A stretch of DNA of 64,000 nt from Dactylonectria macrodidyma (Eukaryota > Ascomycota > Sordariomycetes > Hypocreales > Nectriaceae). Below the pieces are notes generated by a model that made no database searches, was not told the DNA's origin, and saw only the letters and a list, made by a program, of their open reading frames with translations. Position numbers and translations under genes: made by a program. Each line of letters begins with the position of its first letter. The stretch's first letter is position 1. This document shows, piece after piece, positions 7,253-34,628 of the stretch. The stretch is taken from the NCBI GenBank assembly GCA_020744425.1, contig JAGMUV010000029.1:496001-560000 (forward strand), given 5' to 3'.

Positions 7253-7325
7253 TTACAGTTTGATTACAATAGACTGCTCCTTCTGCCTTTTGGCTGAGTA
7301 GAAGACCTCTTGTTCGGCGGCGAAT
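7253..7325 (-). pseudogene. Relic of a MULE transposase C-terminus
   Basis: The minus strand reads about 21 codons ending in EQSIVIKL and a stop. This matches the last residues (DQCIVVKP) of the two MULE transposases at 7468-11178 and 31804-34477. It lies outside the 3' terminal repeat of the intact MULE, so it belongs to a different, older copy, perhaps the one whose end is the 87-bp repeat. Confidence 0.5.
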
Positions 7326-7327
7326 TC

Positions 7328-7407
7328 ATGGGCACCCGGGCGCGCCACCACCCAACTTCCCAGCGCCCAATTGGTCCATCCAACACGCGCTCTGCAAACT
7401 TACAAGT
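7328..7407. repeat. 3' terminal repeat of the MULE at 7468-11178
   Basis: A GC-rich stretch starting near GGGCACCCGGGCGCGCC. It aligns with the left terminal repeat of the MULE at 31.7-34.6 kb and lies at the same distance (about 140 bp) from the transposase stop. I could not find the matching inverted copy beyond the 5' end of this gene (11179-11440), so the other end is lost or diverged. Confidence 0.6.
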
Positions 7408-7467
7408 ACGGTCTTCAGTTACAACGTGAATATGTCCCTGTTCATCCTTGGTAACATATATTACCAG

Positions 7468-12759: not shown

Positions 12760-12924
12760 ACAATGCGTATATTGGCAATATGGACCCCTCGCAATATTAT
12801 CGTATTGTCAAGGGGTGCATATTGTATTACCCAATATGAACATGGCCGATATTGTATTGTATTGCCAAGAATCCAATATATTGGCAGTGTGACAATATAT
12901 CCCATATATTACACGTGACCTTCA

Positions 12925-15103
12925 TTATTCAACTGCTGCAGCGAAAATACCGTCACCTTGAAAATCCCGTATCCTAAACCATGACTTCAAGCATTCTAAT
13001 GCTTCAATTATATCACTCCCAAGTCGATTTCGACGATCTGTAATGGTTATCTTTGCCCCAGAGAAGAGTCGTTCGGGCTCGGCAGACATTGCAGGAATTG
13101 ACAGTATATCCACGGCCATTTTGCTCAGGTTAGGATAGTTTTTTTACTGTGTCTCCTCTAGCCACCATGCAAGGGCGCTTATAAACCCATAAACCCGTTC
13201 AGACTTACAATAACGCTCATACTCATCTGTGATAAGCGCTGGTTGTAGATGCTTGTTTCTCCAACTCAAGAACTCGTTCGTAGTCGTCGACGGGACCTCA
13301 GATAGAGGAAGATGCGGTTCCACAGGTTTATATTCATCCCACAGTGTCTCCATCAACTTCTTTGACGACCCAGCCCACTCCTTCTTCCAGTTCTCGTGTA
13401 TGTAGTGCCATTTATGCGAAGGGTGCAGCACAATCGCAGCAACGTAGGCAGGCGATTCGTCAGTAAGGCGATAGTACTTGTCCATTTTCGCCCATCCCGA
13501 GTTATACATCGGTGCCATAATCCGGTCGTCGATATGTGCCTCCTTCCCTGCTTCGAATTGTGCCAATACGAAGTCCATAGCCAAGAGGACATTGTCGAGG
13601 GTTGCAAACGATGACTCGAGAGCCTTGGTAGTCATTTTGAGCTTCTCTAAAAAGGACTGGATCTTCTCGAGGATGATCCAGTCCTCCGAATAGAGCTCGT
13701 CTCCAGCGCAATCTGCTTCCGCCCATTTGTTAAATACCCGTCGATTGCGTCCCTAAGATGCAAGGCCGCTTGTAGCATAATATACCACGAACTCCACCTC
13801 GTGTCGTTATCTCGCGCAAGCTTGCGGTTATGGCTAATAGCCATAAACTTCTGGCAACGCTGAACACTTCGTTGGATGAAAACGACAAAGTTATGAAGCT
13901 TGCCAAGAGGACCTTTTGCCGCCATGCCTCGATCTCCTTTAGCGTCACAATATATGTACCAGGATCGTCGTGTTCGAGCTTCTCATTGTCGGTAACGAAG
14001 AGGAAAGCTTTGGCGGCGAGGTTGATGATGTGACCTTGGCAGCGAAGGCGGTGAGATCTGGGGTCGTATTGAATGTCAAATCGGCGCAGAAGGCCTGTGA
14101 ATCTTAGGCCAAATCCGAAGAAATAGTGCGTCGTACTGACCAAGAGAAAGAGATCTCATCATTGTATCGTTGTTGCCTGCATTGTCCATCACGAAATATC
14201 CAAGTTTTGAAGCAACCCCCAATCATCGACCACTTCCAAAACTGCCGCTGCAAGGTGAGAACCATCGTGCTCACTGTCGATGTCTTTCAAGGCCAAGACA
14301 TGGTGTTCCAGCTGTCCGTCTTCCGTAACATAGTGAGCGACTACGCCTAAGATGGCCAAAGAGTTGGGAGAAGTCCAAATGTCGCAGCTGATGTGAATCC
14401 TTGACTTTGCCGACTGTATGCGCTGCTTGACCTTATCCTTCTGGCCTTCATACTGCCGCATAATCCATTTCTTGATGGTTTCGTGTGTATCTGGAAGCCA
14501 AGTATCGATATCGGTATTGAGGCAAGCCAAGAGTGCTCGGAACTCTGGGCATTCCACAAGCCGAAGTGGGAGAGAACAGGCCGTAATAAACCTTACGTAT
14601 AACACTTCGAGCTGGTTTGGGTCGATCGAGTCTCCAGATTGATCGTTGAGCCGACGGCGTTTTCGGGGGTTTTCATCGGCCGTAAAACGAGCTTGTTCGA
14701 GAATAGTTCGTATACTTATGACTTTAGCTGTTCGTGGGGCGCCTTTTGGGAGGCCATGACCATCAGGAAGAGGATCTGTAAGGTGCTTGGCTGGAGCGGC
14801 AGTTCCACCAGAACAGGAATACGTTTTGTCACAATGCTTACAGCGCCACTCTTCTTTTCCGGTCCGTTGATTGTAGTATCTTGTCTCTATCTCCTCGTCT
14901 AGCATATGGGAGAAGACCCATGATGTTCTTGGCTTGGCCAAGGAGGTTCTAGAGACTGTGCGAGGTCGCGACGATTGGCAATTGGAGGTTTGGCTCTCGT
15001 CTGGGTCATGTAATTGCTGACTGGAGAGCTCCGAAAAGTCGTCTGATATTGACGACCCTCTTCGTTGCGACGTTTGAACAAAAGGCAGGCGTTGTTGAGG
15101 CAT
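12925..15103 (-). pseudogene. hAT transposase with BED finger, frameshifted
   Basis: Parts in order on the minus strand: a BED zinc finger (CKHCDKTYSCSGG ... KHL); the hAT core (HISCDIWTSPNSLAILG); a segment reading NLAAKAFLFV after an intron at about 14100-14145; DNDTRWSSWY; the DKYYRLTDESPAY region; and the C-terminal dimerisation domain (MAVDILSIPAMSAEPERLFS ... CLKSWF). At least three one-base frameshifts are needed to join these (near 14195 in an A-run, near 13910, near 13735), and a TAA at about 13141 interrupts the last part. It is not functional. The ATG at 15103 starts the BED-containing frame. Confidence 0.85.
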
Positions 15104-15246: not shown

Positions 15247-15659
15247 CGCGTTTTCTTCGCAGGTGTCCCCACAAGTCGACGTTAATTGTCAACAAAACAA
15301 GTGCATTTCGCCCGAAGATCCGCCAGCCAATACAGACCATATATTGCCAATATGGATAGCATTATATTGTATTGTCACAATATCACAACCTGCGTATTAT
15401 ATTGGTGCAATATCAGAAAACGCATATTGTATTGCAATACAAACCATATAATATGGATTTTCTGATATTGTAACAATACAATACAGAGACTGTCATATTG
15501 TGACAATACAATATAAGGCTGCCCATATTGGCAATATATTGTCTGTTGGTTGACTGTTTTGGTGTAACAGGTTGGGGCAAGCCTGCTACATCTTGGGCAA
15601 AATTCACTTGTTTGTTGACAATTTAAAATCGACAAGTGAACACGCGTAGAAGAAACGCG
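15247..15659. mobile_element. 413-bp MITE with long terminal inverted repeats, TA flanks
   Basis: It starts CGCGTTTTCTTC and ends with the inverse GAAGAAACGCG, directly flanked by TA on both sides (15245-15246 and 15660-15661). About 75 bp at each end are inverted copies, including TTGTCAACAAAACAAGTG against its inverse. The core is a series of small palindromes around ATATTG and CAATAT. There is no coding potential. A TA duplication suggests mobilisation by a Tc1/mariner/pogo-type transposase. It sits just upstream of the hAT transposase start. A second partial CGCGTTTTC match lies at about 15206. Confidence 0.75.
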
Positions 15660-15799: not shown

Positions 15800-15900
15800 A
15801 AAGTCGCAAAGAAAGTATTAGAGTGCTTGAAGTCATGGTTTGGGATTCGAGATTTTCAAGGTGACAATATTTTAGCCGCGGCAGGTGAATAATAAAGGTC
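15800..15900 (+). pseudogene. Inverted fragment of the hAT transposase C-terminus
   Basis: The plus strand reads CLKSWFGIRDFQGDNILAAA, then GE and a stop. This matches the last residues of the minus-strand hAT transposase (ending at 12925). The two lie in opposite directions at the two ends of the same element, which makes the inverted ends unusually long. Confidence 0.75.
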
Positions 15901-16088
15901 ACGTGTAATATATGGGATATATTGTCACACTGCCAACATATTGGATTCTTGGCAATACAATACAATATCGGCCATGTTCAAAATTGGGTAATACAATATG
16001 CACCCCTTGACAATACAATAATATTGCGAGGGGTCCATATTGCCAATATACGTATTGTTTATATTATTAGCAACACTGCTTCGATGTG

Positions 16089-16222: not shown

Positions 16223-16803
16223 AGCGGCTCTGTTAATAGAAAAACTCGAAGGTATGAGTTTGCGGGGAAGTTAGGTGGCGGGCTAGATGAGGTTAGCAGT
16301 AAATTTTAGTGGTGGGTTAATTTGTATGCCTAAGGTTCTACTCTATGGTCGGATTTTGCGAGTTTTTATGGTAGTAAGGTCCTCATGAGGGTGTGATTGA
16401 CCAATCGCTTGTAAATTACACTACCCACCACTTTACTGATTATTCATCAAATAAGGTTGCGGGGAACCACTTAATGCAGAAATTGAATTTTTCAACAAGA
16501 GTTCATGATTTCAACCTTGCACCCTCGTGTAGAATATTGGGATTGCATCGCGTCATCTCCCTGAGTTCGCTTATCTTTCACTAGGGCCATAAAAGCGATA
16601 AACATCAATCTACACCGGATCACGGATATCGGAAGCCCAAGTGGGCCGACAGTAATAAGGGGCAAGCGGGGTATTTCATCTCGCTGAGGACTCACAAATA
16701 CTTCAAACTTGAGAATGCATAAAGGTACTTTTCCCCGTCGTCGTCCAGTGGTAGAATTTTGATAGTAATTATCGATTTAGCTCAGAATTCCGTTAGTAGC
16801 ATT
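16223..16803. other. Spacer before the transcription factor gene
   Basis: AT-rich, without a recognisable gene or repeat pair. It is likely to contain the promoter of the gene starting at 16804. Confidence 0.4.
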
Positions 16804-18657
16804 ATGGCTGCATCACCCGACAGGAATAATAACGAACGACCGCTTGAATTTGTCACTTTCAGCATCCCACCGCAAGACGCAGATCCGACCAAGCATGCGG
16901 ATTCATTAAGGGTGATTCGCTCCCACGCGATGAGGGACCACGTCTGGACACAAAATCACCCTTCAATTGCTAGAAAGGGATTGGGCGAGACCAATCGCAC
17001 CCTCAGGCAACAATCAGCGCATATGGGAAGGTATAGATTGAATGAAAAGCCGAACCCCGTGTCAAAGAGGCCACGACGTAGCAACAAAGGCACGACTAGT
17101 TCCGGCGATTGTACAATACCTCCGCAAGCTCGTTACTCCAATGCCATACTTTCGGAGTTGGATTTGGGTTCCGTTCTTCAGCACCAAGTACTGCATGGTT
17201 CAGAAGTTTCGTTAGGCACACGCTTTAACCCTTTTAATGCAACTTTGCTCAACCTGGGATCTAAGAGCCAAAGACTCATATTCTACTGTAAGTTTAAACA
17301 TCATATATATGTTTCCAAGTTATCTTAAGCTAGGGATACGATGCTAAAGTGTCTCCTTTGAAAATATGCACTAACATGCGCATAAAGACCACCAAGCCTA
17401 CTCCATGAACATCGTCGCCCTTAACTTTCAGGAACATTGCCTTTCGAACGCTATAGCCAATTCGGCGCTATTACATGCCATTTTGTACATCGTGGCCACT
17501 GACTATGACCTAAAACGAGGAGAGTCAGATTCTGCTTTATCCATTCATCATGGTGGCGAAGCGGTTCGAGCGATCAACATGCAACTGAATAACGGTGTTT
17601 TGGCCGACACGACAGTCGCAGCTGTTGCAATACTAGCAACCAGAGAGGTATGTCGAATTACAAGCACATTTCTGATTGCATGGTTTAACAAAAGCACGTA
17701 CCTGCAGAATCTCAACGGCAGGTTTCAATTAGCGAATATCCATATGAATGGATTGCAACACATGATTGCGAAAAAGGGAGGGATAGAAAACATAAAAGAC
17801 ATACATCAGCGAGTAGCCACTTGGTAAGGTGTAGCAAGCGGCTTATTTCCTGTTTTTTATACTAATGTAGAACTCCCAGGGCAGACTTCTGCGACTCGAA
17901 TGTGCGGAATTGTCGACCTCGTTTCTGCCAGCCGCCCATATCACCGCTAATGCCCTTAAATAATGCATCTATAAACCTCATGGGTGCGATGCTTAACCCA
18001 GAGGATATCCTAGGAGCTGCATCACCTATTATTCCTGTGATCCAAACCCTTCGACATATATCCCTGTCTATGGATTCAAGTCATTCTGGAATACTGGATA
18101 GGAGTTTGATCAGCCTCTCGATTTATGAAGCTGAATACAGTCTCAATCTATTGAATAGACCGATGGGTGGCGTTAGTGAGTATGGAAATGGCCAGCCGTC
18201 TGAAGTCGTACCGTTGAAGATTGCGGCACATATCTATCTCTATCTTATGATTAGGGAGCTTCCGGGCGGTTCACCAGTATTTGGAGAACTTACTAGAAGA
18301 TTTCGCGCTTCATTGGAGGCGCAGACGGAACAATGGTGGATTGCAAGCAGAGACCGACAGTGCTGGGTCCTTTGGATGCTATATATTGCTTTTGCGGCAG
18401 CACCAGAGGAACCTAATAAGCAGTGGTTCCTGACCAAAGGACTCTTATTGTGCGAGATGCTTAATTTGATGGCAAGAGATGAGCTGGAGCGCATCTTGAG
18501 GAGTGTGTTATGGAATGGTAGTCGATGCCATGATGAGCTTAATAAGGATTCTGGTTTTGGGGAACTCGTCAACATGGTGAGACTGCGATCAGTTTCGGAT
18601 AACAGCTCCGATGCAGTAAATGCGGCTGCACTTAGTACGTGGAACTGCGCAAATTAA
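16804..18657 (+). CDS. Fungal-specific transcription factor domain protein lacking a Zn2Cys6 cluster
   Basis: Four exons join in frame: 16804-17287, 17388-17647, 17708-17823 and 17880-18657, giving 545 aa. Introns are 100, 60 and 56 nt with GT..AG ends. The C-terminal two thirds look like the fungal-specific regulatory (Fungal_trans_2-type) domain: HCLSNAIANSALLHAILYIVA, then HHGGEAVRAINMQL and DTTVAAVAILATRE. The N-terminus (VTFSIPPQDADP...) has no cysteine cluster, so it is a family member without its own classical DNA-binding domain, or it acts with a partner. No stop interrupts the spliced frame. The first in-frame ATG is at 16804. Likely nuclear; targets unknown. Confidence 0.75.
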
Positions 18658-18878
18658 TTAATTAGGGAGGACTGGGTGATAAAGAATAGACGTAGGGTGT
18701 CAAATAAATCTCCAAACCGTTTTTACCCAAGCACCAAGAACTCTAGCAGAATTTAGACAAAAGCTATGGACAACTATGCTAGTGCCGGATGGTAATCCAC
18801 AACACGACAATGCGCCATTTGTCCCCAACCCCGGCCTTCATTGTTTCACCTTGGCAATCTTTCCCAGTCAAGTCAAAT

Positions 18879-19940
18879 CTAAATACCAACGAGATCTTTA
18901 GTATCCAACTCATTAGACACTGCAAAAATTTCATCGGCTTGGTCATCAACTGTCTTTAGCTTTCGGCCCAATAACTTCTCCAGCGTAGGGTCCAGAAAAG
19001 CCTTTTCACCTTGAGAAATTGCGGTATGCCAACTGGCCCAGTTGTCAAGGAAGCTTTCCTGCTCCGGAGGCACGCTCCCATTCTGTATGTGCCACTTGAT
19101 TGCCTCCTGAATAGGTAGTACGCGCACATTGACTTTTCTGCCGGTATGCTTCATAAACTTCTCAATGATATCCGCCCCTGACAAGAGCTCAGGGCCAGTC
19201 AAGTTGATTATCTTATTTATGTACTCTTGCTACTCTGAGGTTAGTTGCGAAGGTATGAACACAGACGCTCATTACTGAGAGATGCACTCACCCAGTTGGC
19301 AATGACATAGCCTGCAGCCTCGCCAAGTTCATTGCGATCGGCCCAATGTTCAAGCCCGTCATTCGGCATCACAGCCTCCAGAGTGGCCTCAGGGTCGCCA
19401 CTCAGATTTAAGAAACCAGCAAAGTTGTTCCAGAGATGTGCGTAGGATGCCATACGAAGGATCGTATACATAAGTCCACTTGCTTTCAAGTAAGACTCAG
19501 TCTGGAGATGAGCTTAAGCAACTTGTGCAACACTAGAAGTTCCTTCCGCACCACCACAGAATGAGAGTGAAGTATAGATCACATGGCGGACGCCGACTGC
19601 CTTGGCCGCGTCGATAGCATTGCGATGCAATGTAAAGCGTTCCTCGCCCATCGATAGGAACGACACAAGGAACAAGACGTCAGCACCAGAATAAGATTCC
19701 TCTAATGTTGATGGTTCGTAAAGGTTGCCCTTGCGAATCTCAACGCCCGTGTTCACAATTCTGGCAGGTATGGCGGATGTGTTGTAAGACGAGAGCCGGA
19801 GTTACGAAACCAGAATGAGTTTTTTATCCAAGATTGTCTGAAGGGCAGAGCGGCCAATGCCACCAGTTGAGCCTAGACCTTTATTAGCTTTACTACTGTC
19901 ACAAGGCAATTCTTGGACTATTACCTGTAAGGACAAACAT
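18879..19940 (-). pseudogene. NmrA-like / atypical SDR oxidoreductase with two premature stops
   Basis: The first exon encodes MFVLTG and joins, after an intron at about 19876-19923, to GSTGGIGRSALQTIL, a Rossmann nucleotide-binding loop. The protein then continues with SYNTSAIP, GVEIRKGNL, GADVLFLVS, VRHVIYTSLS and, after a second intron (about 19238-19301), NLTGPELLS. This order matches NmrA-like NAD(P)-binding proteins. Two in-frame TAA codons interrupt it (about 19800 and 19514-19516). Both sit where Gln (CAA) is plausible, so each needs only C to T at CpA. No other damage is seen, so inactivation is recent. The stop codon ends at 18879. Confidence 0.75.
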
Positions 19941-20263
19941 GCTTTGCTTCGAACGTATGGATGTGAACTTTGTAACGATATGCAACCGAATTGCTATGCA
20001 GAGTGTCGATCTCAATAGAATAGTGTGATATAAATCTATACAAAAGACTCTGAAATTTTTGAACGCTTGGGTTATATCAAGATTTTATATCCGCATGTGC
20101 CACACGTCTTGCTATCGCGCTGTGTAAATAAACGAGCACGACAAAGACGGGCCATGATTAAGCGACTACGATTACAAATGCAGGCGAAAGGAAAAGTATG
20201 CCAAATCATAGAAGCTGAATCACATGGAAACAAGCTCTAGGTCCCGTTTACTTATATGATTCT
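19941..20263. other. Spacer between the oxidoreductase and the palindrome
   Basis: No gene, repeat pair or RNA feature recognised. It holds the presumed promoter of the NmrA-like gene. Confidence 0.4.
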
Positions 20264-22125
20264 AATTTTCGTAATCACCGTATGACTGCCGACGATGCCG
20301 GGTTCGCAAATTGCCGAGTTCAGAAAATGCTCTGCGTGACGGCGCTAGTGACCATCAGAAAGAATTACCGGATCCGGATAATGGTCTGCATTAGTGCGCC
20401 GCAGGAAAGGCGGGGGTCGTCGCCCCACACATCTTAGGCCTGGCTCCGATCAATATTATTTGCTCATCTCTCCGGCGGAATGGTGCTTTGTACGTATTCA
20501 TGATGAAATCACTCAATCAAATCATGCCGATCACGTCATGGCATATAATGGATTACTGATATGCTAAAGCCGAGCCTTGTAAGATTTCAGGTATATTAAA
20601 GAATAAATAAATGGATGAATGTAACTTGTTCAGTTCTACTCATTAAGGAAAATTCCAAATCCTCAGATTACTTGCAATCTTCTGTTCACATACACATACA
20701 TATTCAACTTATCCACATTCCTAATAGCATCTGAATCAAAACGGGTCATTGTTGTAACCGGTGCCTCGAGAGGCCTTGGTGTGAGTTGATTCCAAAATTC
20801 ACTCATGACCTATCCTTAATACTATGAATTAGCTTGAATGGGTCGAGCAACTCAGTCAAAATTCAGAGAATTTTGTCATTGCTCTTGTCCGTAATCCGGA
20901 TACTGCTGAGAGGCTGAAGCCCCTTCTTAGACCACAAGTCGTTGCAGTCAAAGGAGACGTCAGCGACTTTGATTCGTTTCCGGTATGCCCGGTTCCTTGC
21001 GTGACCTTTCCCCGCTCCATGACTAAATGACATTACAGAGAGTTATTGAAAATATTTCCAAAGTTAGGGGTAGAAAGGTCGACTGGCTCATTAAGTAAGT
21101 CATACCGTCATCCAATTGTCCATCGTTGAACGCGCAGCTAATTTTTCTCGAGCAATGCTGGCGTTATGGCGGGTACCGGAGCAGAACCTATGACTGGCAT
21201 ATCAAAGTCTACCGTTAAGGAGTGGGAAGACCAGGTTTGGCTTTAACCTACCACCTTTAGAAGCATAAATACTGATTGCAACTAACGATAGTTCAAGATT
21301 AATGTTCTGGGACTTGTCTTTTTCACTATCGCACTCATTCTACTGCTTGAGAAAGGGAGTGAGAAGAAAGTTATTAACATCTCTTCTATGTTGGGCGATC
21401 TTAACTATACTAAAAAGAGCCTAAACCTCCATTTCTCATCATACTCGGCAACAAAGGCCGCAATCACAATAGCGAACGCTAAATTTCACCTAGAGTAAGT
21501 CAAGGATTTAGCATTTATCATTTTTTATGAAGAATCACATTTACTAATATATTGGCATAGTAGATTTAAAGATAAGGGATTTGTATTTTTGGCTTTGAAC
21601 CCTGGTTGGGTTAAGACAGAGCTTGGTCCGGAGGAAGTGCAATAATACGTAAGTAATTATCACCCTTTGGATAGTAATTCATCAAAAGCGGTTCATCGAA
21701 ACTAACAATTCTAAGGCACTACTCACTCCTTATAAGTCGATAAGTCGCTGTCTTAGTTTCATGTATCGCAGCAACAGTAATAACAGTAGGAAATTCTGAT
21801 CATTAGACGGACTAAAAGAGGCCATGACTGACTAATTACTATTTCAAATGAATAGTATATAGCTCTATATAAATATTTCATGTCTACAGGTACTATTATG
21901 GATTCTTATTTTGCGTTTATTTCGAGACTCCCCTGCCTATATAGATGAACGTCTTATAGCATATATCTCCAGTAAACTCGACCGTAATACTTAGCTACTA
22001 ATCTCACTATAGCTACATAACTACCATGCACAACCACCCTTTCGCCAACCCCACTCTTTCGCCACGCAAATAAAAAAAGCACCACCAAAACTCGTCAACT
22101 TCACTTACACAGAACTTGACCAAAA
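20264..22125. repeat. Left arm of a 5.7-kb palindrome (1,862 bp)
   Basis: It is the reverse complement of 24134-25995. Paired positions always add up to 46,259 at every landmark I checked (outer ends, an SDR intron donor, pogo ends), so the arms have no net insertions or deletions. The arm holds an SDR gene relic, a short AT-rich stretch and the 102-bp terminal repeat of the central pogo element. Most differences between arms are C/T or G/A. Confidence 0.9.
20733..21645 (+). pseudogene. Short-chain dehydrogenase/reductase relic, left arm
   Basis: Spliced in frame it reads RVIVVTGASRGLG (cofactor loop), LEWVEQLSQNSENFVIAL, GDVSDFDSF, LINNAGVMAG, FKINVLGLVFFTIAL, INISSMLG, then the catalytic YSATK and LNPGWVKTELGPEEVQ followed by TAA. 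Introns include 20781-20832 and 20983-21038. The glycine motif, NAG and YxxxK are present, so the ancestor was a classical SDR. No start codon is visible upstream, so a first exon is missing. The protein stops about 60 residues before the usual end, at a TAA where CAA is plausible. An NAD(P)-dependent role is inferred only for the ancestor. Confidence 0.8.
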
Positions 22126-24235
22126 TGATAGATATACGCAAAATTGTCCGTCTTATAAATAATAGTTGCGCATATCTATTGAATCCTGGGTCTTTTGATA
22201 AGCCGCCCTGATCGTGTGGTTGGTTGATGGGGTATGGTTCCCTCTCTGACCTCAATGACCGAGGCAGCCTCCGATTCTGACTCCGGCTCGCCTGAACAGC
22301 CACATTCCACCACAACAGGCATATTTTGAGTCTCCTCTTCGGGTATGGATTCTCCACCAGCTAGAGTCTCACCAAGAGTCATAAAACGTTTGTTAGGATT
22401 CGGCGCGGCCTTCCTCTTCTTCCCTCTCTTCAGACGAGCCAATTCCTCCTCTAGGTTAGCAATCCTCGCAGTATGCGCTGCTACCGTCTGCTGTTGAGCC
22501 TCAAAGCCCTTGGCTATTACGTTGTACCGTCTTCGTGTCTTTGGCGTTTTGTTCAGCCCAAGATCACGAATTTGACGGCTCGTCCTTGGTGTATCGTCCG
22601 AGCCAAAATACGCCGTGGGTTCGGGAGTCGCTCTTGGGCTGCCATTTGGCCTATCTTCCTGGATTTCTGGGTGCCGCAGCGCTTTTGCACGTGTGATCGG
22701 CCAATTCCCAGTAACCCTCCATCCAGAGAGTATGTTCTTCTCAGTCATTCCAACTCGACGCGCCTTGGCGTAGGCCCTAATGAAATTGACCTTGTCCATT
22801 GGAGTGGAATTAGTCAATGAAGCGAACTTTTCCAACTCTCGTCGATATGCTGCTTCGGAGGCATTGAATACTCCATTGTCCAACGGCTGGAGCCCATGAG
22901 AGCAGTGTGCTGGCAGATAGCAACAATAAACGTTGTTCAAAAAGCACGTGGCCATCTATTCATCCTACCGTCGCTCAGTAGTGATCTTGAGCTGAAGAAA
23001 ACGAAGAACATACCGTTGCATGACTCCCATGACCGTCTAAAATGATCAGTCTCGCGTCAGAGTCGTCGGCAGGCATGGTCTGGGGCAGATAGACTCTTTC
23101 AAGCCATTCAACGCCAATGTGGTCGTCCGTCCACCCGTTAGGTGAAGTTATGTAATACCAGTCTGCTATCTTCTTGAATTCCTTAAGAAACCACTGTTTC
23201 TGGAGTTCTTTCCCCTTGAATATTATGCCGGGGATTAAGGCGCGGCCGTCAGCGGTGACGGCTTCGATAAATGAAGTCCAATTTCGAGTTTGTGGTCCCT
23301 TGGGAAATGCCTTCCGTTTTGGGTCCGCGCTTCCAACAACCAGGCTATCTAAGCCTAAATAAAAAGGATTAGTGGGTCAAATTTCAAACACTGACAAGGT
23401 ATACAGATAGATGCTTGCCGAAACCAGTCATAATACCCCCTTCGTCAACGTTGACGGTGTTTTCAGGCTTGATCCAGCCATACTGGCCCTCCCTGATATC
23501 AAAGTACCAATGAACTGCCTTAGGCGTGAAAGAGTCGAACCTTTTGGCTTCTTGACGTCTACCCATCTTGGCCTTCAGGTCTGTGCGGCGCTTGATAAAT
23601 CTGGTCACCCAGTTGCGTCCTAACTCGGGATGTTCGCCCTGCTGTGTCAACAAGCCCATGAGGCAAGCGCGGATCTGATTGTGGGACGGAGCATAGCCTA
23701 AGGATTCCTGACGGAGTATCCAGAAAGCCAATCTGTCCTCTTGATTCTTGGACAAACGTCGGCGAGGCTGAATCTGCTCTTTCACGGCTGTCTGGCCGTT
23801 AAGTCTGTCGGTGAGAGTCTTTCGGGGCACTCCCCGTCTCTGAGCCGCTTGAGGGTGAAAAGCCATTATCGGTAATATCCAATATAGCCTCAGCCATGTC
23901 ATCCTCTGTATATTCCCATCGAATCCGCGAGATAGGCATTTTTTGGTCGTTGTCCGAGGCAAAGACCAGAAAACACGAGAAAGAGCGGTGAGGAGGTTGG
24001 TGATTAAACTGACAATATTTCAATAGCACGGCCTGCATATATCGCGTACCCCGCATAGCCTTATAGAGTCAAAACAATTACCTCCAATCATTTCTCTAAT
24101 CAATAGAGGTAACTTCTTTTAGGTAGCTATTTGTTTTGGTCAAGTTCTGTGTAAGTGAAGTTGACGAGTTTTGGTGGTGCTTTTTTTATTTGCGTGGCGA
24201 AAGAGTGGGGTTGGCGAAAGGGTGGTTGTGCATGG
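22024..24235. mobile_element. pogo/Fot-like transposon at the palindrome centre (2,212 bp)
   Basis: Ends read CCATGCACAACC inward and are flanked by TA on both sides (22022-22023 and 24236-24237), the target of Tc1/mariner/pogo elements. Terminal inverted repeats are about 102 bp. It carries a pogo-type transposase on the minus strand. Because the sequence outside its ends is also palindromic, the usual single-site flank test cannot be applied. A related, more decayed copy lies at 44109-46286 with the same TA and CCATGCA ends. Confidence 0.85.
22176..23939 (-). pseudogene. pogo-family (DDE_1) transposase, nearly intact
   Basis: From ATG 23939: an N-terminal HTH region, then HPQAAQRRGVPRKTLTDRL; a CENP-B-like segment; the first Asp in TVNVDEGG; the second Asp in LIILDGHGSH; the third in GLQPLDNGVF; and a charged tail ending in RSGRLIKRPRIQ. 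Two introns: 23355-23418, which on this copy has a GC donor, and 22965-23013. Lesions: one extra T in a T-run near 23862 shifts the frame, and GAT-GAA-TAG after the second intron replaces the Trp seen in the sister copy (GAGTGGATGGCT at about 45370). The element could be non-autonomous for these reasons only. Confidence 0.85.
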
Positions 24236-25995
24236 TAGTTATGTAGCTATAGTGAGATTAGTAACTAAGTATTACAGTCGAGTTTACTGGAAATACATGC
24301 TATAAGACGTTCATCTATATAGGCAGGGGAGTCTCGAAATAAACGCAAAATAAGAATCCATAATAGTACCTGTAGATATAAAACATTTATATAGAGCTAT
24401 ATACTATTCATTTGAAATAGTAATTAGTCGGTCACGGCCTCTTTTAGTCCGTCCAATGACCAGAATTTCCTACTGTTATTACTGTTGCTGCGATATACGA
24501 AACTAAGACAGCGACTTATCGACTTATAAGGAGTGAGTAGTGCCTTAGAATTGTTAGTTTCGATGAACCGCTTTTGATGAATTACTATCCAAAGGGTAAT
24601 AATTACTCACGTATTATTACACTTCCTCCAGACCAAGCTCTGTCTTAACCCAACTAGGGTTCAAAGCCAAAAACACAAATCCCTTATCTTTAAATCTACT
24701 ATACTAATATATTAGTAAATGTGATTCTTTACAAAAAATGATAAATGCCAAATCCTTGACTTACTCTAGGTGAAATTTAGCGTTCGCTATTATAACTACA
24801 GCCTTTATTGCCGAGTATGATGAGAAATGGAGGTTTAGGCTCTTTTTAGTATAATTAAGATCGCCCAACATAGAAGAGACGTTAATGACTTTCTTCTTAC
24901 TCCCTTTCTCAAGCAGTAGAATGAGTGCGATAGTGAAAAAGACAAGTCCCAGAACATTAATCTTGAACTATCATCAGTTACAATCAGTATTTATACTTCC
25001 AAAGGTAGTAGGTCAAAGCCAAACCTGGTCTTCCCACTCTTTAACGGTAGACTTTGATATGCCAGTCATAGGTTCTGCTCCAGTACCCGCCATAACGCTA
25101 GCATTACTTAAGAAAAATTAGCTGCGCGTTCAACGATAGACAATTAGATAACGGTATGACTTACTTAATAAGCCAGTCAACCTTTCTACCCCTAACTTTG
25201 GAAATATTTTTAATAACTCTCTGTAATGTCATTTAGTTATAGAGCGGGGAAAGGTCACGCAAGGAACTGGGCATACTAGAAATGAATTAAAGTCGCTGAC
25301 GTCTCCTTTAACTATAACGACTTGTGGTCTAAGAAGGGGCTTCAGCCTCTCAGCAGTATCCGGATTATAGATAAGAGTAATGACAAAATTCTCTGAATTT
25401 TAACTAAGTTACTCGACCCATTCAAGCTAATTCATAGTATTAAGGATAGGTCATGAGTGAATTTTAGAATCAACTCACACTAAGGCCTCTTGAGGCACTG
25501 GTTATAATAATAACCCGTTTCAATTCAGATACCATTAGGAATGTGGATAAGTTAAATATGCGTATATATATAAACAGAAGATTGCAAGTAATCTGAGGAT
25601 TTGGAATTTTCCTTAATAAGTAGAACTGAATAAGTTACATTCATCCATTTATTTATTCTTTAATATACCTAAAATCTTACAAGGCTCGGCTTTGGCATAT
25701 CAGTAATCCATTATATGCCATAACGTAATCGGCATGATTTGATTGAGTGATTTCATCATGAATACGTACAAAGCACCATTCCGCCAGAGAGATAAGCAAA
25801 TAATATTGATCGGAGCCAGGCCTAAGATGTGTGGGGCGACGACCCCCGCCTTTCCTGCGGCGCACTAATGCAGACCATTATCCGGATCCGGTAATTCTTT
25901 CTGATGGTCACTAGCGCCGTCACGCAGAGCATTTTCTGAACTCGGCAATTTGCGAACCCGGCATCGTCAGCAGTCATACGGTGATTACGAAAATT
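24134..25995. repeat. Right arm of the 5.7-kb palindrome (1,862 bp)
   Basis: Inverted copy of 20264-22125. In several stretches the differences are C in the left arm and T here, before A (for example CAACTCAGTCAA against TAACTTAGTTAA when read in the same direction). That is the CpA bias of RIP and suggests that this arm was mutated more heavily or differently. Confidence 0.9.
24610..25526 (-). pseudogene. Short-chain dehydrogenase relic, right arm (heavily mutated)
   Basis: It is the inverted copy of the SDR relic at 20733-21645. Intron positions are retained, for example a GTGAGT donor at 25473-25478. Many C-to-T changes alter conserved residues; the glycine loop region reads with a Ser for Gly. 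It is not expected to encode a protein. Confidence 0.8.
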
Positions 25996-26819
25996 TGTCA
26001 AATGTTTGAGTGAATTGCCTGTATTCATCTGTTGTATGTGACTTGTGTGTGTCCACTTGCTGCTTGAGGTTTTAGAGCAAGCTCTATATGCCTTTTCTGT
26101 GCTATGTGGAATCAACTGGAAGCTGCTTGCTAAGCCTGTGGCAATAGGTGGCAACTGTCATCTTTGATGACAATTTTATCAGCCTTTCAAGCTACTTCCA
26201 TGAGCTTCCTTTTGCCACTTATTCAACAGATTGGCTTAAAAGAGTAGCTAGTGTGCCCAGTAGTCGCCGCAATAGCGATTATTGACCAATCTTTTGCCCC
26301 ATGGTACAGCGCTCTAGCACAACCGTTACATATTAACTGCAATAACGCATAGCTTACGTAAGATATTGCTCCGTTAATGTAACTTGAGGTTAGAATGGTA
26401 AAAGAGAATAAATTAAGATATATGCTAGGTGTGAGCACTCTAATATACTACTGCAACATAGAAAATTGTTCTAGATGCCAACAAAGACCCCTGACAGTAG
26501 TGGTTAGCAACCATACTGACATTGCTGCCAATATCAGAGTGCTTGCTATTGAAATAGCCTGGTGTTGCCCGGTACAGAACCGTTTCAGCGCCTCGGAATG
26601 CTATCTGCCGTGGATACATAGGTATGGTGGTGGGGTTGGGATAGGAACGAGGCAGCCCAAGGTGCTAATCCTTGGCACCAACGGGCACCAACATCGAAAT
26701 TCTTGGTCGATTCGAAGAATGGCCTGTTGAAAACGTTTCATTGAAGCGCGTCACCGAGAGCGGCAAGACAACATTTAAATTGCAGTTGGGGCCCAAGTCT
26801 TGCGTATACCATCAGATCA
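25996..26819. other. Spacer right of the palindrome
   Basis: AT-rich to about 26,560, then of mixed composition. I see no gene. Short inverted words such as TCATCTTTGATGA (about 26158) occur, but no long repeat. Confidence 0.4.
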
Positions 26820-27074
26820 GTGTCAAGGCCTGACAAAGGCAGAAGACCGCTCAAGGCTTCATCCCGGGCTGCAAAATCGTCTGGTAGAAAGTGGACACCA
26901 GGAGGGGAAGACACAGTACGCAGGATGAAACAGGATGGCTGCTCTTGGGCCGAGATATACAAGGCTTTTCCATATCGCTTCCAGGGCACGATTCAGGTTC
27001 GCTACTCGACGAAATTAAAACTAGGTCGACCAGGTCTAACACGAGACTGGCTAGATAGGACACCAAGACTCTAG
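26820..27074 (+). pseudogene. SANT/Myb-like DNA-binding domain fragment
   Basis: An open frame with the pattern GRKWTPGGEDTVRRMKQDG, then SWAEIYKAFPYR and TIQVRYSTKLK. This matches one Myb/SANT repeat of the type found in many short fungal proteins with a WTPEED core. There is no ATG at the start of the frame and nothing recognisable follows the domain, so it is a fragment, or one exon of a gene whose other parts are lost. Confidence 0.55.
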
Positions 27075-27141
27075 AAAAATAAATGCATTTTTATTGTGGC
27101 TCAGTCTAAACTTCATCGACAGTAACAAGCATTGCAAGCGC

Positions 27142-28596
27142 CTAGTTCCGGGAAAATGCGTCACTAGCCAACTTTCCTACTGAGTGACCTTCACACGATG
27201 GGTATCTTTCACAATGACGCTCGTATGTCATCAAGGCCCAGGCCGGCAGTAGTGAGCGACATTGGCCCTCCGTTATCCCTTCACCTCTCACGATATTTTG
27301 GCCATATACAGGCTGTCTCAGGCCCTGTTTCAACTTTCGGGCCAGCTCATTGCACCCGTTTATAAACGATGTGATTCCATTGTAGTCGGAGCTGGCGGGA
27401 CATGAATGCAAATTCCTTTTTGCCCCGCATATTGAGCAAAGTTGAAGTAGCAGTCTCAATGACCAATACTCGACCTGCAAGAATACAGCATCTAACTCGC
27501 TCCTATTCGCATCGAAGGCAATGTCAATGGAACCCGGATCGTGTTGGAACTGGAGAACAGTGGCCGAGATCTCATCCAGGAGGTTTCTGTGCCATGAAGC
27601 GTACCAGCTGTCAAGACTAGCTTCTAGGGTCTCTAGCTTTTCAGTCATGTCTTCCAATGCGCCTGCTCCAACTGAAGCCGGATTATGTGCAAGGGCGTAG
27701 GCAACAGGGCCTGTCAGAAGTGCGGCGATATCGAAGAGGCGGTCCCGAGTTGTCTTTGGCACGTCTAGCCATGGTTCATTCATCCAATGAGGTTCTGCCA
27801 AGAATGACTTCTGACATGCACAGAATGAATCAAGAATGACCATCTCCCTCAATTTCTTGAATACAAGATGATCATCCCTTGCCGTAAACGTTTGCGGCCC
27901 GCACAGCTGCATGAAAAGAATTGCACCTTGGAGGTGTCTATTCTGGAACATCACGCCGCTGGAAAAGATGGTGCTCGGTGTGTGGTGCATTGCTTCGAAC
28001 ATGGTGTAAACTAACGATGCTGTAGCCAGGGTCGCAGCAAGATGCGGATTCCTCGTAATCTGGCCGTTCTCACAACAGCTTCGGAACAGGCGTAAGCTTT
28101 CCCCATAAGCAGTCAAGCTCATTATGCGGGCCTGCTTATCCCTGGTGGTCTGAGAGAGCCTGAGGGAGCTGAGTGCAATCAATGCAAGATCCAGGAATCG
28201 GTTCCGATTTATGAGCGTAGTAAATGATGGGGCCCAAGCATCACTTGAGCGAGAATGGCCAAGATTGAAATGGTCCCACAAACACATGACATGATTTCGA
28301 AAATCCAGTTTCGTAAGCTCCAGGGAATTAAGTGAATTTCGGTAGAGGTTTTCGGCGGGATGTTGGCTGTGGCTTGTCGAAGATGACGACACATTTGCCG
28401 CGAGACTTAAGGCTTCGGATAAAATTATTTTGCTTGAGGATTCAATAGTACCGGAGTCGACGTTTACAAAGACCATTTGTCCATCGCGATCGTAGCCTTT
28501 GCAGTGGAATCCGTTTTTCCAGCAGGTTCGGCAAACTGGTCGGGCTCTATCGCATTTTCTATGCCCTCCTCGGCAGGTTCGGCAGTTTCGAAACAT
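27142..28596 (-). CDS. Zn(II)2Cys6 transcription factor
   Basis: 484 aa from the ATG at 28596. The N-terminus holds a complete binuclear cluster, CX2CX6CX6CX2CX6C (C5-C8-C15-C22-C25-C32 approximately), followed by a basic RDG linker. The remaining 400 residues are helical and fit the fungal-specific regulatory (Fungal_trans_2/DUF3468-type) domain, e.g. HVMCLWDHFNLGHS and LRLLLQLCSICG. No intron or stop. The frame is open 16 codons further upstream, but that extension is hydrophobic and unlikely. The promoter contains a block repeated at 36640-36915. It lies 800 bp from an HD-domain gene on the same strand, so regulation of that gene is possible but unproven. Confidence 0.85.
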   Translation of the reverse strand: MFRNCRTCRGGHRKCDRARPVCRTCWKNGFHCKGYDRDGQMVFVNVDSGTIESSSKIILSEALSLAANVSSSSTSHSQHPAENLYRNSLNSLELTKLDFRNHVMCLWDHFNLGHSRSSDAWAPSFTTLINRNRFLDLALIALSSLRLSQTTRDKQARIMSLTAYGESLRLFRSCCENGQITRNPHLAATLATASLVYTMFEAMHHTPSTIFSSGVMFQNRHLQGAILFMQLCGPQTFTARDDHLVFKKLREMVILDSFCACQKSFLAEPHWMNEPWLDVPKTTRDRLFDIAALLTGPVAYALAHNPASVGAGALEDMTEKLETLEASLDSWYASWHRNLLDEISATVLQFQHDPGSIDIAFDANRSELDAVFLQVEYWSLRLLLQLCSICGAKRNLHSCPASSDYNGITSFINGCNELARKLKQGLRQPVYGQNIVRGEGITEGQCRSLLPAWALMTYERHCERYPSCEGHSVGKLASDAFSRN

Positions 28597-28623
28597 GGCG
28601 AAAAATCTTTTCAGAAAGACTAC

Positions 28624-28905
28624 GAAGAAATAAAGGGGGGACAAACTCGGCAGTTCATTGGGGGAATTTCTTGTCTTTTCTGGCTAGAATTTAGGGCAAC
28701 TGCGGGGTATTTAAAATACTGGTCGTCAGAACTGCTTGACGGGTGATCGGCACTTGCCCGTTTCAAGACCCAAGTGTTACGTGGGGAAGGTCCAATCAAA
28801 CGTGAGGGAACTAGCCGAAAATGGAGAATGAATCCTCCAATCATACGTTTGAGAAGCACAGACCCCGAGGATTGGTGTTTAGCCCCAGGAAAGACCTGTA
28901 CATCG
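28624..28905. repeat. Dispersed block, copy 1 (upstream of the Zn2Cys6 gene)
   Basis: It matches 36640-36915 in the same orientation, at roughly three bases in four by eye. Long shared runs include GGAATTTCTTGTC and AAAATGGAGAATGAATCCTC. In this copy it covers the promoter of the Zn2Cys6 gene. Confidence 0.75.
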
Positions 28906-29398
28906 CCATGTCGGTGACATGCCAACGTCCTCGTGGCGGAGATTCCCGCTTTAGCAAAGGAGGTGAACATCCTGACATTGTGGAGTATCGTAGGGGGGTT
29001 GATGAATCGGGATCGCTTATATTCATGCAGCGGGATTTCTAATCGCCGGGTCCGCTCAACCCTAGATGCCCACCCCTCTTCCCAAAAAAGGGCGTTCTGC
29101 TCAATGAGCTGGCAGCTAGGCTACCGAGTACTCCGTCCTGCATGCACATTCATTGAGGAGATTCGGCTTACGATCACTATACGCTAAAATATGAGGAGAC
29201 AACACTGCCGACCCCAATGCCCCGCCCTTTTATTGCAGCCTTACCGCCACGCGACGCAGCATTCACCCTTGGAAAGGGCAGAAGCCCGTCATTTGTCTTG
29301 ATGGTCTGTTGACGGTAATCCAAAGCCCTCATATCCACATGTATACAGTCGGCGGGGAAGCGGTTAGGGTATAAAGACTACACGGAGCACGTTGCTAT
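28906..29398. other. Intergenic spacer between the Zn2Cys6 and HD genes
   Basis: No conserved frame. It contains the 3' flank of the HD gene (minus strand). Confidence 0.4.
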
Positions 29399-30208
29399 CT
29401 ATTTATCGTCTCTTGAAATTTCCTCGTCAAGAACTTCGAGAGCATCCAATGCGAACTTGGAAAAGTTCACGAAACGCGCCTTCTGCACCTCCTCGGCGAA
29501 TTTATCTTTGCCGGATCCTTCGCCATTGACGCCAAACCGAACTCCAAACTCGCCCACAAAATTATCGTACGTAGTATTTGGCTTGGTCCTGCATATTCCA
29601 CACATTACCCGCTTCAGGCCTTCATATGTAAATCCACTGCGCGGAAATAGTTTTGTCACCGCGCGATACTCTTCCCTCGAAATCAGGTTTGGTCCGAGGC
29701 CGAGGTCAAGATTGGGACCCAAGAGATCGGCTGTGATACCCAAGTGCGTAAGAGCTACTTCAGCTGCGGCGTGCTGTGCAATGGACGGTGTCGCGTGTAA
29801 TGCGATTGCATCCCAAGCTCGTTGGATTCTTGCTGGGTCCCATACTTCGGTAGTCTCATTATCCTGATACTCCGACCCGGTATGACCCTTGAGGAATGAT
29901 GTAGCGATGTTTGCACCATCGACTTCGAAGCGTTTGTCTTGGGATAGGAGCTCTTTGGTCGCCGCCCATCCCATGTCGTGGAGCATAGAGCTGACGAAGA
30001 CAAGACTCAGGTCCACATTCGCAAACTGTGGAAGTTTTCTGGCTATGATCAAAGCCCAATAGGCTGAGCGAGCTACATGATTGTAGGTCATTGTGTCGCA
30101 GTGCTTCTTGACAAAAGAGGATGTTTTGGTAGCTAGAGCGGCGGATGGTATGATTAGACCCAATTGCGGAATGCCGGCAAGTATCAAGTCTCCGCGTTGA
30201 CTGCCCAT
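29399..30208 (-). CDS. HD-domain protein, cyanamide hydratase-like
   Basis: A 269-residue single-exon protein of the HD phosphohydrolase superfamily. Metal ligands are visible: H43 (YNHVARS), the H77-D78 pair (SSMLHDMGW), and H138 in WDAIALHATPS. The DKRFEVDGA motif and the overall layout resemble fungal cyanamide-hydratase/Ddi2-like proteins, which hydrate a nitrile-like substrate to urea. The substrate here is not known. There is no clear signal peptide. A paralogue with the same motifs is at 35292-36121. No lesion is visible. Confidence 0.8.
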   Translation of the reverse strand: MGSQRGDLILAGIPQLGLIIPSAALATKTSSFVKKHCDTMTYNHVARSAYWALIIARKLPQFANVDLSLVFVSSMLHDMGWAATKELLSQDKRFEVDGANIATSFLKGHTGSEYQDNETTEVWDPARIQRAWDAIALHATPSIAQHAAAEVALTHLGITADLLGPNLDLGLGPNLISREEYRAVTKLFPRSGFTYEGLKRVMCGICRTKPNTTYDNFVGEFGVRFGVNGEGSGKDKFAEEVQKARFVNFSKFALDALEVLDEEISRDDK

Positions 30209-31671: not shown

Positions 31672-34628
31672 AATACATGGGCGCCCGGGCGCGCCACCCA
31701 CAAACTGTCCGGCGTCCCATTGGCCCATGCAACACGCGCTGCAAACTTACAAGCGCAGTCTGAAGTTACTATGTCCTCATTTGATAACTGTAAGTATAAT
31801 CGGCTACGGTTTGACGACAATACACTGATCTACTGAGCCAGAAGTCGAATGCATGGCTTGCTGCTTCTTGCTGTCTCTTTCAACGCTCTTCCAGATGTCT
31901 TTCACACCTCTTCTCTTGTTTGCCAGCGGATTGTCTCCCATCTCATGGACGACTTGGGCCTTAATGCGTTCATCCTCCGCCTTGCTCCAATCCAAATACG
32001 CCATCATCTCTTCTTTCGTCCATTCCCTTGATCCTGTTGAGGCCGTGTAGCGCTTGGACATCTGCTTGTAGTCCAGACACCACTCATAGCTCTGCTTGTC
32101 GTACCTTTGTGGCAGCCCCATCGCCCTACGATATTGCTGGTTGGTCTTGATGCTGCCGGTGGGCTGCGCTGCGTACCACGCGCTTCTCGCGGCAACATAC
32201 CTTCCATATATAGCTTGTGGCGAGTCGTACCTCGGCGGTGAATGCAGGAGGGGCTCGCGCAAATGGCATGGTTGTTGCACCACAGACTCTCCACCGACGG
32301 AGCTTGACACAGTTCCTGCCGGACCGTCTGAAACGATAAGAGAGTAGGGGCCTATAGGGGAATCTTGTATAGCAGGCAAAAGCGGGACAAATGGGGTTGG
32401 TACAGCAGCGGGAGAGCGACAGCGTCGAACAGCTTCCGCAGGGCGTTCTAGTGTATCTCCGGCCAATGATAGCTCGCGAGTCACCGAAACACTTTCGGTA
32501 GGATCGGTAAGAGCTGGAATGGCGACTGCTGCTGCGTCCGGCTGCGGGACTGACTTCGAAGCCCGTGCTGTCTGTGTAAGCAACTCCTGGAGCCTCAGAG
32601 GACATGCACTCGAGGACTTTATGTTACCAACTACGTGACATCTACTATACGTACGGGGCTTTTTCTTGCCGGACTGGACGATTTCAAATCCAGAGGGTTC
32701 TCGTCTGGTGCTCGTTGTGGGCTGGCTAGTCGCCTGGATACCTTGCCTTAGGACTTTACGTGGCTCCAGCATAGGCCGCGGCCGATCCACATTCCGTTTC
32801 AATGCCCAATGAGGATGAAAATGCTCAAGCAAAAGGCTCTCCTTTTCCTCCTCAAGTTTCTTCAACGTGTGAGAACACGGCAGCCCATGTGAGGAAGTGA
32901 AGGACTGACGGCAAGGAGCTTTGAGAGGCGCCAGAAGTAACTTCCGCTGCTCTTGCACTTTGCGCAGGGCCTGGTGTGACACCCAACCCTACACTGCTTC
33001 GACCATTTCTCCCGAGACATCTAGAGGCGTCCGGATCCGTTGAGAGGTTCGTATGTGATTCAGCTCTTTTAGTTGGTTGGTGACCGCGTGGCGCATGGCT
33101 TGCCAAGAGTCGAAGAGGTCGAACGTAGATGTCTTGATATACGATTTGATCAAAGAGTGGATTCCTTCGGCCCTAGGAGGCAAACGTTAATTAGCTTTTA
33201 ATATTGATGTAAACCCTGGCTGACTACCTCGAAGTGGCTACATTGCCAAAATGCAAGTGTTTATCCACCCATGCTTTAACGATTCTCTCTTTGCGCGGCT
33301 CGAGCCAGTATAACTTAATATACCCAACCGCCCTGGGGTGGCTCTTGGCGTACTTGAGCTCAAACTTGGCCAACCGCTCTTTGAACACCACTTCGGTTGG
33401 CGAATCCACAATTGAGTGCCAAAATCTGTAGAATTCGTTCCATGCTTCTTCTGCTTGACCGCTCGATTGGCTACCGGTACTCTTCACTACAAAGTCAGGT
33501 TTACAGTACTGCAGAACTGCCTTGTTGACATGCTAGAGGCAAAGCAGTGCCTTGGAGGAAGGGAACCACGTTGCAGCCGCATTTATCGTAGCGAGACATC
33601 GGTCCGTTAAGACCACAGAAGGAAGCTCATGCTGGTAGAGTGATTTGAGATGACGAAGTGCCTATGAATAGTCCTCTTCTGATTCGCCTGATAGAAAGGC
33701 AAATGCGATGCAGAACGAACGCTGATAAGAATCAACTCCAACCATGTCAAGGAGCGGCATGGCGTGCTTGTTCGTCTTGTAGGTGCAGTCTAATAACAAG
33801 ACGTCTGGGTTGCATTGGAGGTAGGCAACGGAGTCCGGATGGGCGAAAAAGATGGCTGTGAGCCGATGGTCTGAATCCAGCCGAACTCGACACCAGAAGC
33901 CTTCTTCGTATAATTGGTCAACCAGCGCTTGGATACTGCTTTGCCCTTCACGTAGATCTCTCCTAGTTGCCGCAATTCGGTTGTAGACGTCTTGCTGAGT
34001 CGCGAGGCTATCGGAATTGTTATAGAGGTAGGTTCTGATATCTCGAGGAGCAGTACCAGCGGTCGTCAGATTTGAAATAATGGCAGCATCTCTCTCGTTA
34101 AGCTGGCGATGCGCCGGGTGTGCAGATGCATCTTCACTCGGTGGGTGATTGTGCTGGGCACACTCCTTGTCTGGTCGACGGCTTAGGACCCATGTACTTC
34201 CATCCAGTGACTGTTTGGCCAGTACTGAGAACTTGCATCCAGCTCTCCGGCTACAAGTGCGGCGTTTTCGTTCGATAGATGTACTCGGTGGCGGCTTATT
34301 CCGATCGCATGCAAACACGACTTTGATTCGACCGTTTGGGGTCTTCGTGGACTTTCCCGTCGTGAATGCATAACCTCGGGGTTTCGCCCAAGAATTGATG
34401 GCTGTGAGCAGAGATTCGCGTGATTCATATATGTCCTCCGGCGGCAGGGCGTCATCAACAAATGTCGTCTGATCCATTGTTTCTCCTGGACCCGAGGTGT
34501 TTGTCGCGGTTTAGGTTACAGTTGCAGAGCGCGCGTTGCGTGTTGGATGGGCCAATAGGACGCTGGACAGTTTGTTGTGGCGCGCCCGGGCGCGCAATTT
34601 TATTTGGGCGCCCGGGCGCCCATGTATT
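31672..34628. mobile_element. MULE transposon with terminal inverted repeats
   Basis: The left end (AATACATGGGCGCCCGGGCG at 31672) and the inverse of the right end (to 34628) match, and the match continues through AACTGTCCGGCGTC and CATTGGCCCATG for about 75 bp. The right end carries an extra copy of the GCGCGCCCGGGCGC word. No direct target duplication is evident. It carries a transposase on the minus strand. Confidence 0.8.
31804..34477 (-). pseudogene. MULE transposase with three in-frame stops
   Basis: From ATG 34477: a FAR1-like region (CDRNKPPP ... CAQHNHPPSEDA), the MULE domain with D in VLLLDCTYKTN, D in VVLTDRCLAT and E in SRAEGIHSL, a SWIM-like SSHGLPCSH, a zinc-knuckle remnant (CHVVGNIKSSSACP) and the C-terminal module ending in DQCIVVKP. 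One 55-bp intron (33173-33227) restores the frame. Three TAG stops break the spliced frame (about 33660, 33535 and 32985). The first two replace Trp-like positions and the third could be Gln; all fit CpA changes. Otherwise it is full length. The C-terminal part is close to that of the MULE at 7468, while the catalytic part is distant. Confidence 0.9.

Follow-up and report, generated by a model that had tools for sequence, protein, structure and literature searches.

Architecture of the palindromic locus

The window, i.e. the whole stretch of 64,000 nucleotides analysed here, comprises bases 496001-560000 of contig C22, and the genome searched consists of 77.3 Mb in 77 contigs. An inverted-repeat search identified a palindrome at window positions 20264-22125 / 24134-25995, which bears 1,862 nt per arm, is 95% complementary and has 2,008 nt between the arms. 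A pogo transposon lies at its centre. The locus is composed of the following features (window positions):

16424..21973, + strand: segmental duplication of ~5.5 kb, common to C76:511970-517525 (96.7%); its part 17542-21834 is also found on contig C4 (97.0%)
20264..22021, + strand: left arm outside the pogo element, read as the source copy; carries a relic of a short-chain dehydrogenase (SDR) gene
22022..22023, no strand: TA adjoining the pogo element on its left side
22024..22125, + strand: left pogo terminal inverted repeat (TIR), 102 bp, same as the right TIR; a mosaic, right-type at 22091-22102 and left-type at 22111-22119
22024..24235, - strand (that of the transposase): pogo element with HTH_Tnp_Tc5 and DDE_1
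24134..24235, - strand: right pogo TIR, same as the left TIR; inner part left-type
24236..24237, no strand: TA adjoining the pogo element on its right side, inside the copied arm
24238..25995, - strand: right arm outside the pogo element, read as the inverted copy of 20264-22021; bears the larger share of the RIP-like changes, plus an SDR relic
25996..26228, + strand: solo LTR, TG...CA, 233 bp; its flanks AAATT / GATTG do not match
26229..26330, + strand: 3' part (102 bp) of a second LTR-like repeat, which reads TGTTACGG...CGTTACA in two copies

Base-by-base alignment of the arms revealed 97 differing positions out of 1,862, 100% of them transitions; there are no transversions and no indels, and the outermost 200 bp contain a single differing site. 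An earlier sequence-only reading of this DNA had described arms in perfect register that acquired many C/T changes but no net indel since their duplication, and the alignment bears out both statements. The self-comparison revealed neither indels nor separate origins of the arms, the right arm reading as a copy of the left. The terminal 102 bp of each arm are the TIRs of the transposon, which form the inner ends of both arms as had been claimed, so that the duplicated flank is 20264-22021 (1,758 bp).

A scan for inverted repeats of at least 150 bp found three others in the window, shorter or weaker than the palindrome; at loci L009-L028 none was present besides this palindrome (in L011). We also considered the palindrome as a mobile unit or member of a repeat family. 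This was rejected, since among the best 40 of 143 candidates long matches to the arms were found only here (twice) and as single arms on contigs C76 and C4.

Other repeats were observed in the window. A 273-bp inverted repeat (93%) at 12733-13004 / 15813-16085 lies around ORFs, one of which matches a BED zinc finger below the Pfam cut-off; 35 further matches are listed for its right-hand copy. Positions 15332-15546 hold a 219-bp stretch that is an imperfect reverse complement of itself (81%). A direct repeat of ~750 bp (88%; 7323-8074 / 31672-32410) extends over the ends of two long - strand ORFs that are related to each other and in our impression resemble MULE-type transposases.

Short-chain dehydrogenase exons were recognized in both arms (PF00106, E=2.3e-6 for one left-arm exon and 4e-9 for the relative on C76). 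Comparison of four exon stretches showed that the left copy has ATA in place of the start ATG and a stop near the C-terminal end and that the right copy has internal stops; the relatives on C76 and C4 encode nearly the same protein without a stop. The SDR gene relic proposed for each arm is thus present, coding integrity being lost in both. Judging from these exons, both copies are relics, and the palindrome is without demonstrated function.

Source and copy

The left arm runs unbroken across 20264 into the segmental duplication 16424-21973. The C76 and C4 copies of this segment have a single arm, and no pogo element was present in the 10 kb fetched at each. In a four-way comparison of both arms, C76 and C4 over 1,565 bp, the arms depart from both relatives by the same 37 substitutions and by two indels of 3 bp and 1 bp, and an additional 4-bp indel separates them from C76. 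Private changes number 17 in the left arm and 67 in the right arm; every one of these 84 is a C>T or G>A change, 5 more sites being ambiguous. The relatives have 10 (C76) and 15 (C4) private changes, transversions included.

Because the segmental duplication is continuous across 20264, the left arm is the source and the right arm its inverted copy. The indels and 37 substitutions common to the arms, followed by changes of C>T type only, indicate that the left copy diverged normally and was later copied in reverse. The order read from the alignment is thus ordinary divergence of the left copy, reverse copying and a phase in which C>T-type mutation alone is seen. The sequence-only reading had spoken of the capture of a host gene. 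This is too strong, as the SDR gene belongs to a segmental duplication that is older and recurs, without pogo, at two other loci, and there is no sign that the palindrome moves.

An empty pogo site was not found: the C76 copy ends 48 bp and the C4 copy ~187 bp short of the pogo site. The pogo junction pattern, searched with up to 3 mismatches, is present in the two arms only, and no single-arm allele of this very locus, break or intermediate was seen. On the other side of the palindrome, positions 26449-29500 match C4:1297295-1300966 in three pieces (90-97%), and C4 also holds a relative of the left flank. The region around the palindrome is, from its matches, a mosaic of segmental duplications.

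RIP-like mutation of the arms

In the left copy, 47 of 677 C/G sites are changed inside the arm versus 24 of 1223 outside (p=1e-7); for CpA sites the counts are 31/214 and 15/395. The right arm, with four-fold more private changes than the left, is changed at 71 of 214 CpA sites versus 25 of 463 other C/G sites. Changes common to the arms are likewise CpA-enriched inside the arm (23/214 versus 15/395 outside, p=0.001), and some of these 'shared' changes may therefore be parallel hits. Of the 32 window-specific changes beyond the arm, 24 belong to the C>T or G>A class, and CpA sites are hit more often than other C/G sites (15/395 versus 9/828, p=0.003); judging from such counts, weaker RIP-like mutation has touched the dispersed part of the segmental duplication too. 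The private changes of nine pogo copies show no skew to C>T/G>A, which accounts for 43 of 124 overall and 8/31 in the window copy.

The C>T changes of the arms form a RIP-like pattern, from which we infer premeiotic RIP. A homologue of RID-type methyltransferases is encoded by a methylase ORF at C1:5131870, where the RID name rests on one relative, rid1, that is 56% identical. The genome contains a second methylase ORF, longer than the RID-type one, which we take to be Dim-2-like by its length alone. Over both arms the private changes show a strand bias: read on the + strand, G>A outnumbers C>T by 58 to 26 (p=0.0006). Deamination of single-stranded DNA during the event was considered instead of RIP; the strand bias fits it, but the CpA preference favours RIP. 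We also considered that the arms were once longer than now. The RIP density of the left copy drops outside 20264 and thus gives no sign of this; an edge effect is possible, given one difference in the outer 200 bp.

The mutations bear on the explanation that the palindrome is an assembly or library artefact. Long-read and amplification chimaeras can produce palindromes, and a palindromic chimaera could arise in this way. Its arms would be expected to be nearly identical, whereas here 97 differences were found, all transitions, CpA-biased and polarised by two relatives, and the flanks differ between the sides of the palindrome. We regard an artefact as practically negligible.

It is possible, although we think it doubtful, that the RIP machinery singles out cis palindromes here: the 1.76-kb inverted duplication is heavily mutated, the nine pogo copies (94-99% identity) carry no skew and the dispersed segment is weakly affected. 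The weak RIP-like skew outside the arm weakens a palindrome-only reading. In the available part of PMC5555474, RIP is reported on linked repeats from ~400 bp and on unlinked repeats from ~1 kb; by the latter threshold the dispersed copies would qualify for RIP by length. If palindromes were indeed singled out, fold-back palindromes made by TIRs would be preferentially destroyed by RIP, and this would conceal the true frequency of TIR-seeded inverted duplications of host genes. The locus is a natural test of what RIP targets, with a heavily mutated linked palindrome beside dispersed repeats of similar or greater length that are mutated weakly or never.

Identity of the pogo TIRs

The central pogo element (2,212 bp, 22024-24235) bears CCATG...CATGG ends and 102-bp TIRs and is flanked by TA on both sides. 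The right TA lies inside the copied arm and is therefore no independent target duplication. Its transposase, on the - strand, shows HTH_Tnp_Tc5 and DDE_1 over three separate ORF pieces, in agreement with the pogo identity that had been assigned from the letters alone. For comparison the best 40 of 316 genome candidates were scored, so that more copies exist than were compared. The sibling set consists of eight close copies (94-97% identical to the window copy), the more distant L017b and 20 further copies, compared at their ends only.

A few other pogo arrangements were observed. A second pogo-like stretch of the window (44430-45993) is 66% alike, lies in opposite orientation to the first and is 20 kb away. 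L017 (C25:445163-449967) contains two pogo copies of different subfamilies, head to tail with one TA between them. L023, L024 and L025 (C61, C60 and C35) hold equally truncated pogo copies of equal score ~15-17 kb from the contig starts; their surroundings are perhaps a duplicated block.

Counted up to column 97, the two TIRs of each of the eight close siblings disagree at 10-12 columns, compared to 0 in the window copy. Columns 69, 72, 73, 80, 90, 93 and 97 are fixed left versus right in 8/8 close siblings and column 89 in 7/8; all seven fixed columns are homogenised in the window copy. Both window TIRs match the right type at columns 69-80 and the left type at 89-97; slightly further inside, by a few bases, the sequence returns to the right-type interior. 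The TIRs of L017b differ at 20 columns and those of the 20 further copies at 5 to 31, a range that narrows to 5-18 for the 15 copies whose ends are clear. At the innermost diagnostic columns 89-97 the two ends differ in 8/8 close siblings, in L017b and in 15/15 clear-ended copies, but not in the window copy.

Two siblings without inverted flanks, L068/L069 (C26:356395-358615; 6 TIR differences) and L070/L071 (C8:1066418-1068638; 5 differences), carry the kind of mosaic seen in the left TIR of the window: their left-type end reads right-type in its outer part and left-type further in. TIR-to-TIR conversion seems to occur on its own within this pogo family, and the left TIR of the window may have been mosaic before the inversion event. 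Because of these two mosaics, homogenisation of the outer TIR alone proves nothing and the inner part alone is special; the left-end mosaic was dropped as proof of same-molecule pairing. The right TIR is identical to the left one throughout and has a left-type inner part, which suggests that the left TIR was its template or pairing partner. Such a pattern is expected if the left TIR guided recopying or correction of the right one along its full length.

Inverted flanks were found at 0 of 29 siblings (flanks of up to 2 kb were compared for 9 of them and of up to 300 bases for 20); among the 20, L038/39, L042/43, L044/45, L058/59 and L076/77 are weaker tests, with at least one end truncated or misplaced. 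The comparison left the window copy as the only one of the 30 pogo elements compared that combines inverted flanks with identical TIRs. The claim that the inversion was made through the transposon is supported by this absence among the siblings and by an inner-TIR identity that is unique among the copies compared.

The order could also have been the opposite one, in which pogo inserted at a TA at the axis of a pre-existing inverted duplication and later arm-to-arm conversion equalised the TIRs. A TA does lie at the axis. The 9/9 siblings compared with up to 2 kb of flank sit at TA, as the window copy does, and partial TIR conversion occurs in other pogo copies of this genome. Perfect palindromes without a spacer are unstable, so that central insertions could be selected. 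The insertion would have had to hit the axis rather than any of the 337 other TA dinucleotides of the arms (148 + 189), and a separate conversion of the inner TIR would be needed, which is absent from 24 other copies. We consider this order distinctly improbable.

Right outer junction

The right arm stops exactly at the start of the solo LTR, 25996 being the first LTR base. Among eight other copies of this LTR, the 5-bp target duplication is perfect in six, matches at 4 of 5 bases in one and is absent from one (L037), as it is from the window copy. A reading of 25996-26228 as a MITE was rejected on the grounds that the copies, ~233 bp long, begin with TG and end in CA and that 6/8 show a perfect 5-bp duplication. 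The start TGTTACGG of the adjoining second LTR-like repeat, present in two other copies read, is missing to the left of 26229.

The simplest account, as judged from these flanks, would be that the solo LTR is a recombinant whose sides come from different insertions. The right outer end is probably a secondary join made by LTR-LTR recombination, as suggested by the exact LTR boundary together with the mismatched target duplication. At 20264 the left arm carries no LTR, so the LTR would have entered the right arm after copying or come from a homologue, or the copied arm would have been joined directly to an LTR end. With a junction of LTR origin, 25995 need not mark the point at which copying stopped.

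Proposed origin by fold-back priming

Based on these sequence comparisons, we propose that the pogo TIRs seeded the inverted duplication, most likely via fold-back priming, an origin we hold to be probable. A break to the right of pogo would have been followed by resection, and the right TIR, now single-stranded, would have annealed to its left counterpart on the same strand (102 bp, ~10% diverged in siblings, with a 2-kb loop). After trimming of the overhanging 3' tail, the paired end would have primed a polymerase, which would have copied no less than 1.76 kb of the left flank in the outward direction. The copied end would then have been joined at the solo LTR, probably by LTR-LTR recombination, and the RIP-like mutation seen in both arms would have come afterwards, presumably as premeiotic RIP. 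Priming by paired TIRs would explain the turn, the register, the TIR identity and the polarity of source and copy in a single step. Later arm-to-arm conversion could also make the TIRs identical.

The two siblings that carry the same left-TIR mosaic without inverted flanks weaken the support for fold-back and strengthen a template switch between chromatids or homologues. Here break repair would have involved pairing of the right TIR with the left TIR on a sister or homologue; alternatively, crossing-over would have produced a dicentric that subsequently broke. The product would be the same as by fold-back; the left-TIR mosaic, as those two siblings share its type, may predate the event, and a homologue could supply the LTR that is missing from the left arm. 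However, nothing positive sets such a switch apart from a cis fold-back, and the yeast precedents, in the parts available (PMC10164571, PMC10622511), are cis fold-backs. We judge the switch unlikely, but one to be kept in mind. A hairpin or sister-chromatid fusion at the transposon ends had been put forward in the sequence-only reading; the hairpin fits the data, and the sister-chromatid version is inseparable from it.

The same reading had named aberrant transposition, for which we found no support. Reversed-ends or single-end reactions of pogo would have made the inverted duplication, and rearrangements from such reactions are described for maize Ac/Ds in the available parts of PMC3744419 and PMC4270019. 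Yet identical TIRs are not predicted by aberrant transposition. The reaction in the accessible text of PMC4270019 uses the termini of two nearby elements, while the sole other pogo found in the window is the one 66% alike and 20 kb off. Such an origin is very improbable.

Comparison with known systems

Engineered yeast has been shown to form fold-back inverted duplications, and the same has been inferred for human patients; the present locus looks like a natural fungal record of such an event. The record is readable thanks to the sibling transposons, which provide the unconverted TIR state, and to the two relatives, which provide the ancestral flank. In the literature searched, mostly titles and abstracts, we noticed no described case of fungal-transposon TIRs seeding an inverted duplication of host DNA. 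The locus suggests that a DNA transposon with long TIRs may be a latent fold-back site, able to copy a neighbouring gene in reverse.

The RIP-like mutation resembles RIP in that only C>T/G>A changes follow the duplication, CpA is preferred, the changes are denser inside the repeat and the genome has a RID-type methyltransferase homologue. It is unlike RIP in that nine pogo copies lack the skew and the unduplicated part of the window segment carries a weaker one. The transposon shares with fungal pogo elements (Tc1-mariner superfamily) DDE_1, a Tc5-type HTH, TA on both sides and terminal inverted repeats; among the 30 pogo copies of this genome compared, the window copy alone has inverted flanks and identical TIRs.

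In yeast, as described in the accessible portion of PMC10164571, inverted repeats of up to 25% divergence and up to 30 kb apart fold back in single-stranded DNA. Fold-back near a break leads to inverted duplications in which stem mismatches are corrected and secondary joins often lie at delta elements or PAU genes (PMC10622511, part available), and human inverted duplications have a spacer with short inverted sequences at the border (PMC3907307, part available). Compared to what these portions of the three sources describe, the locus differs in that it lies in a wild filamentous fungus and has transposon TIRs, those of a DNA element, as its inverted repeats, that only 1.76 kb of flank remains as the copy and that the LTR at the outer end is absent from the source arm. 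It resembles them in having an inverted repeat at the turn, a spacer that is not duplicated, one arm that runs on into the original chromosome, stem mismatches resolved to identity and, probably, a second junction at a repeat.
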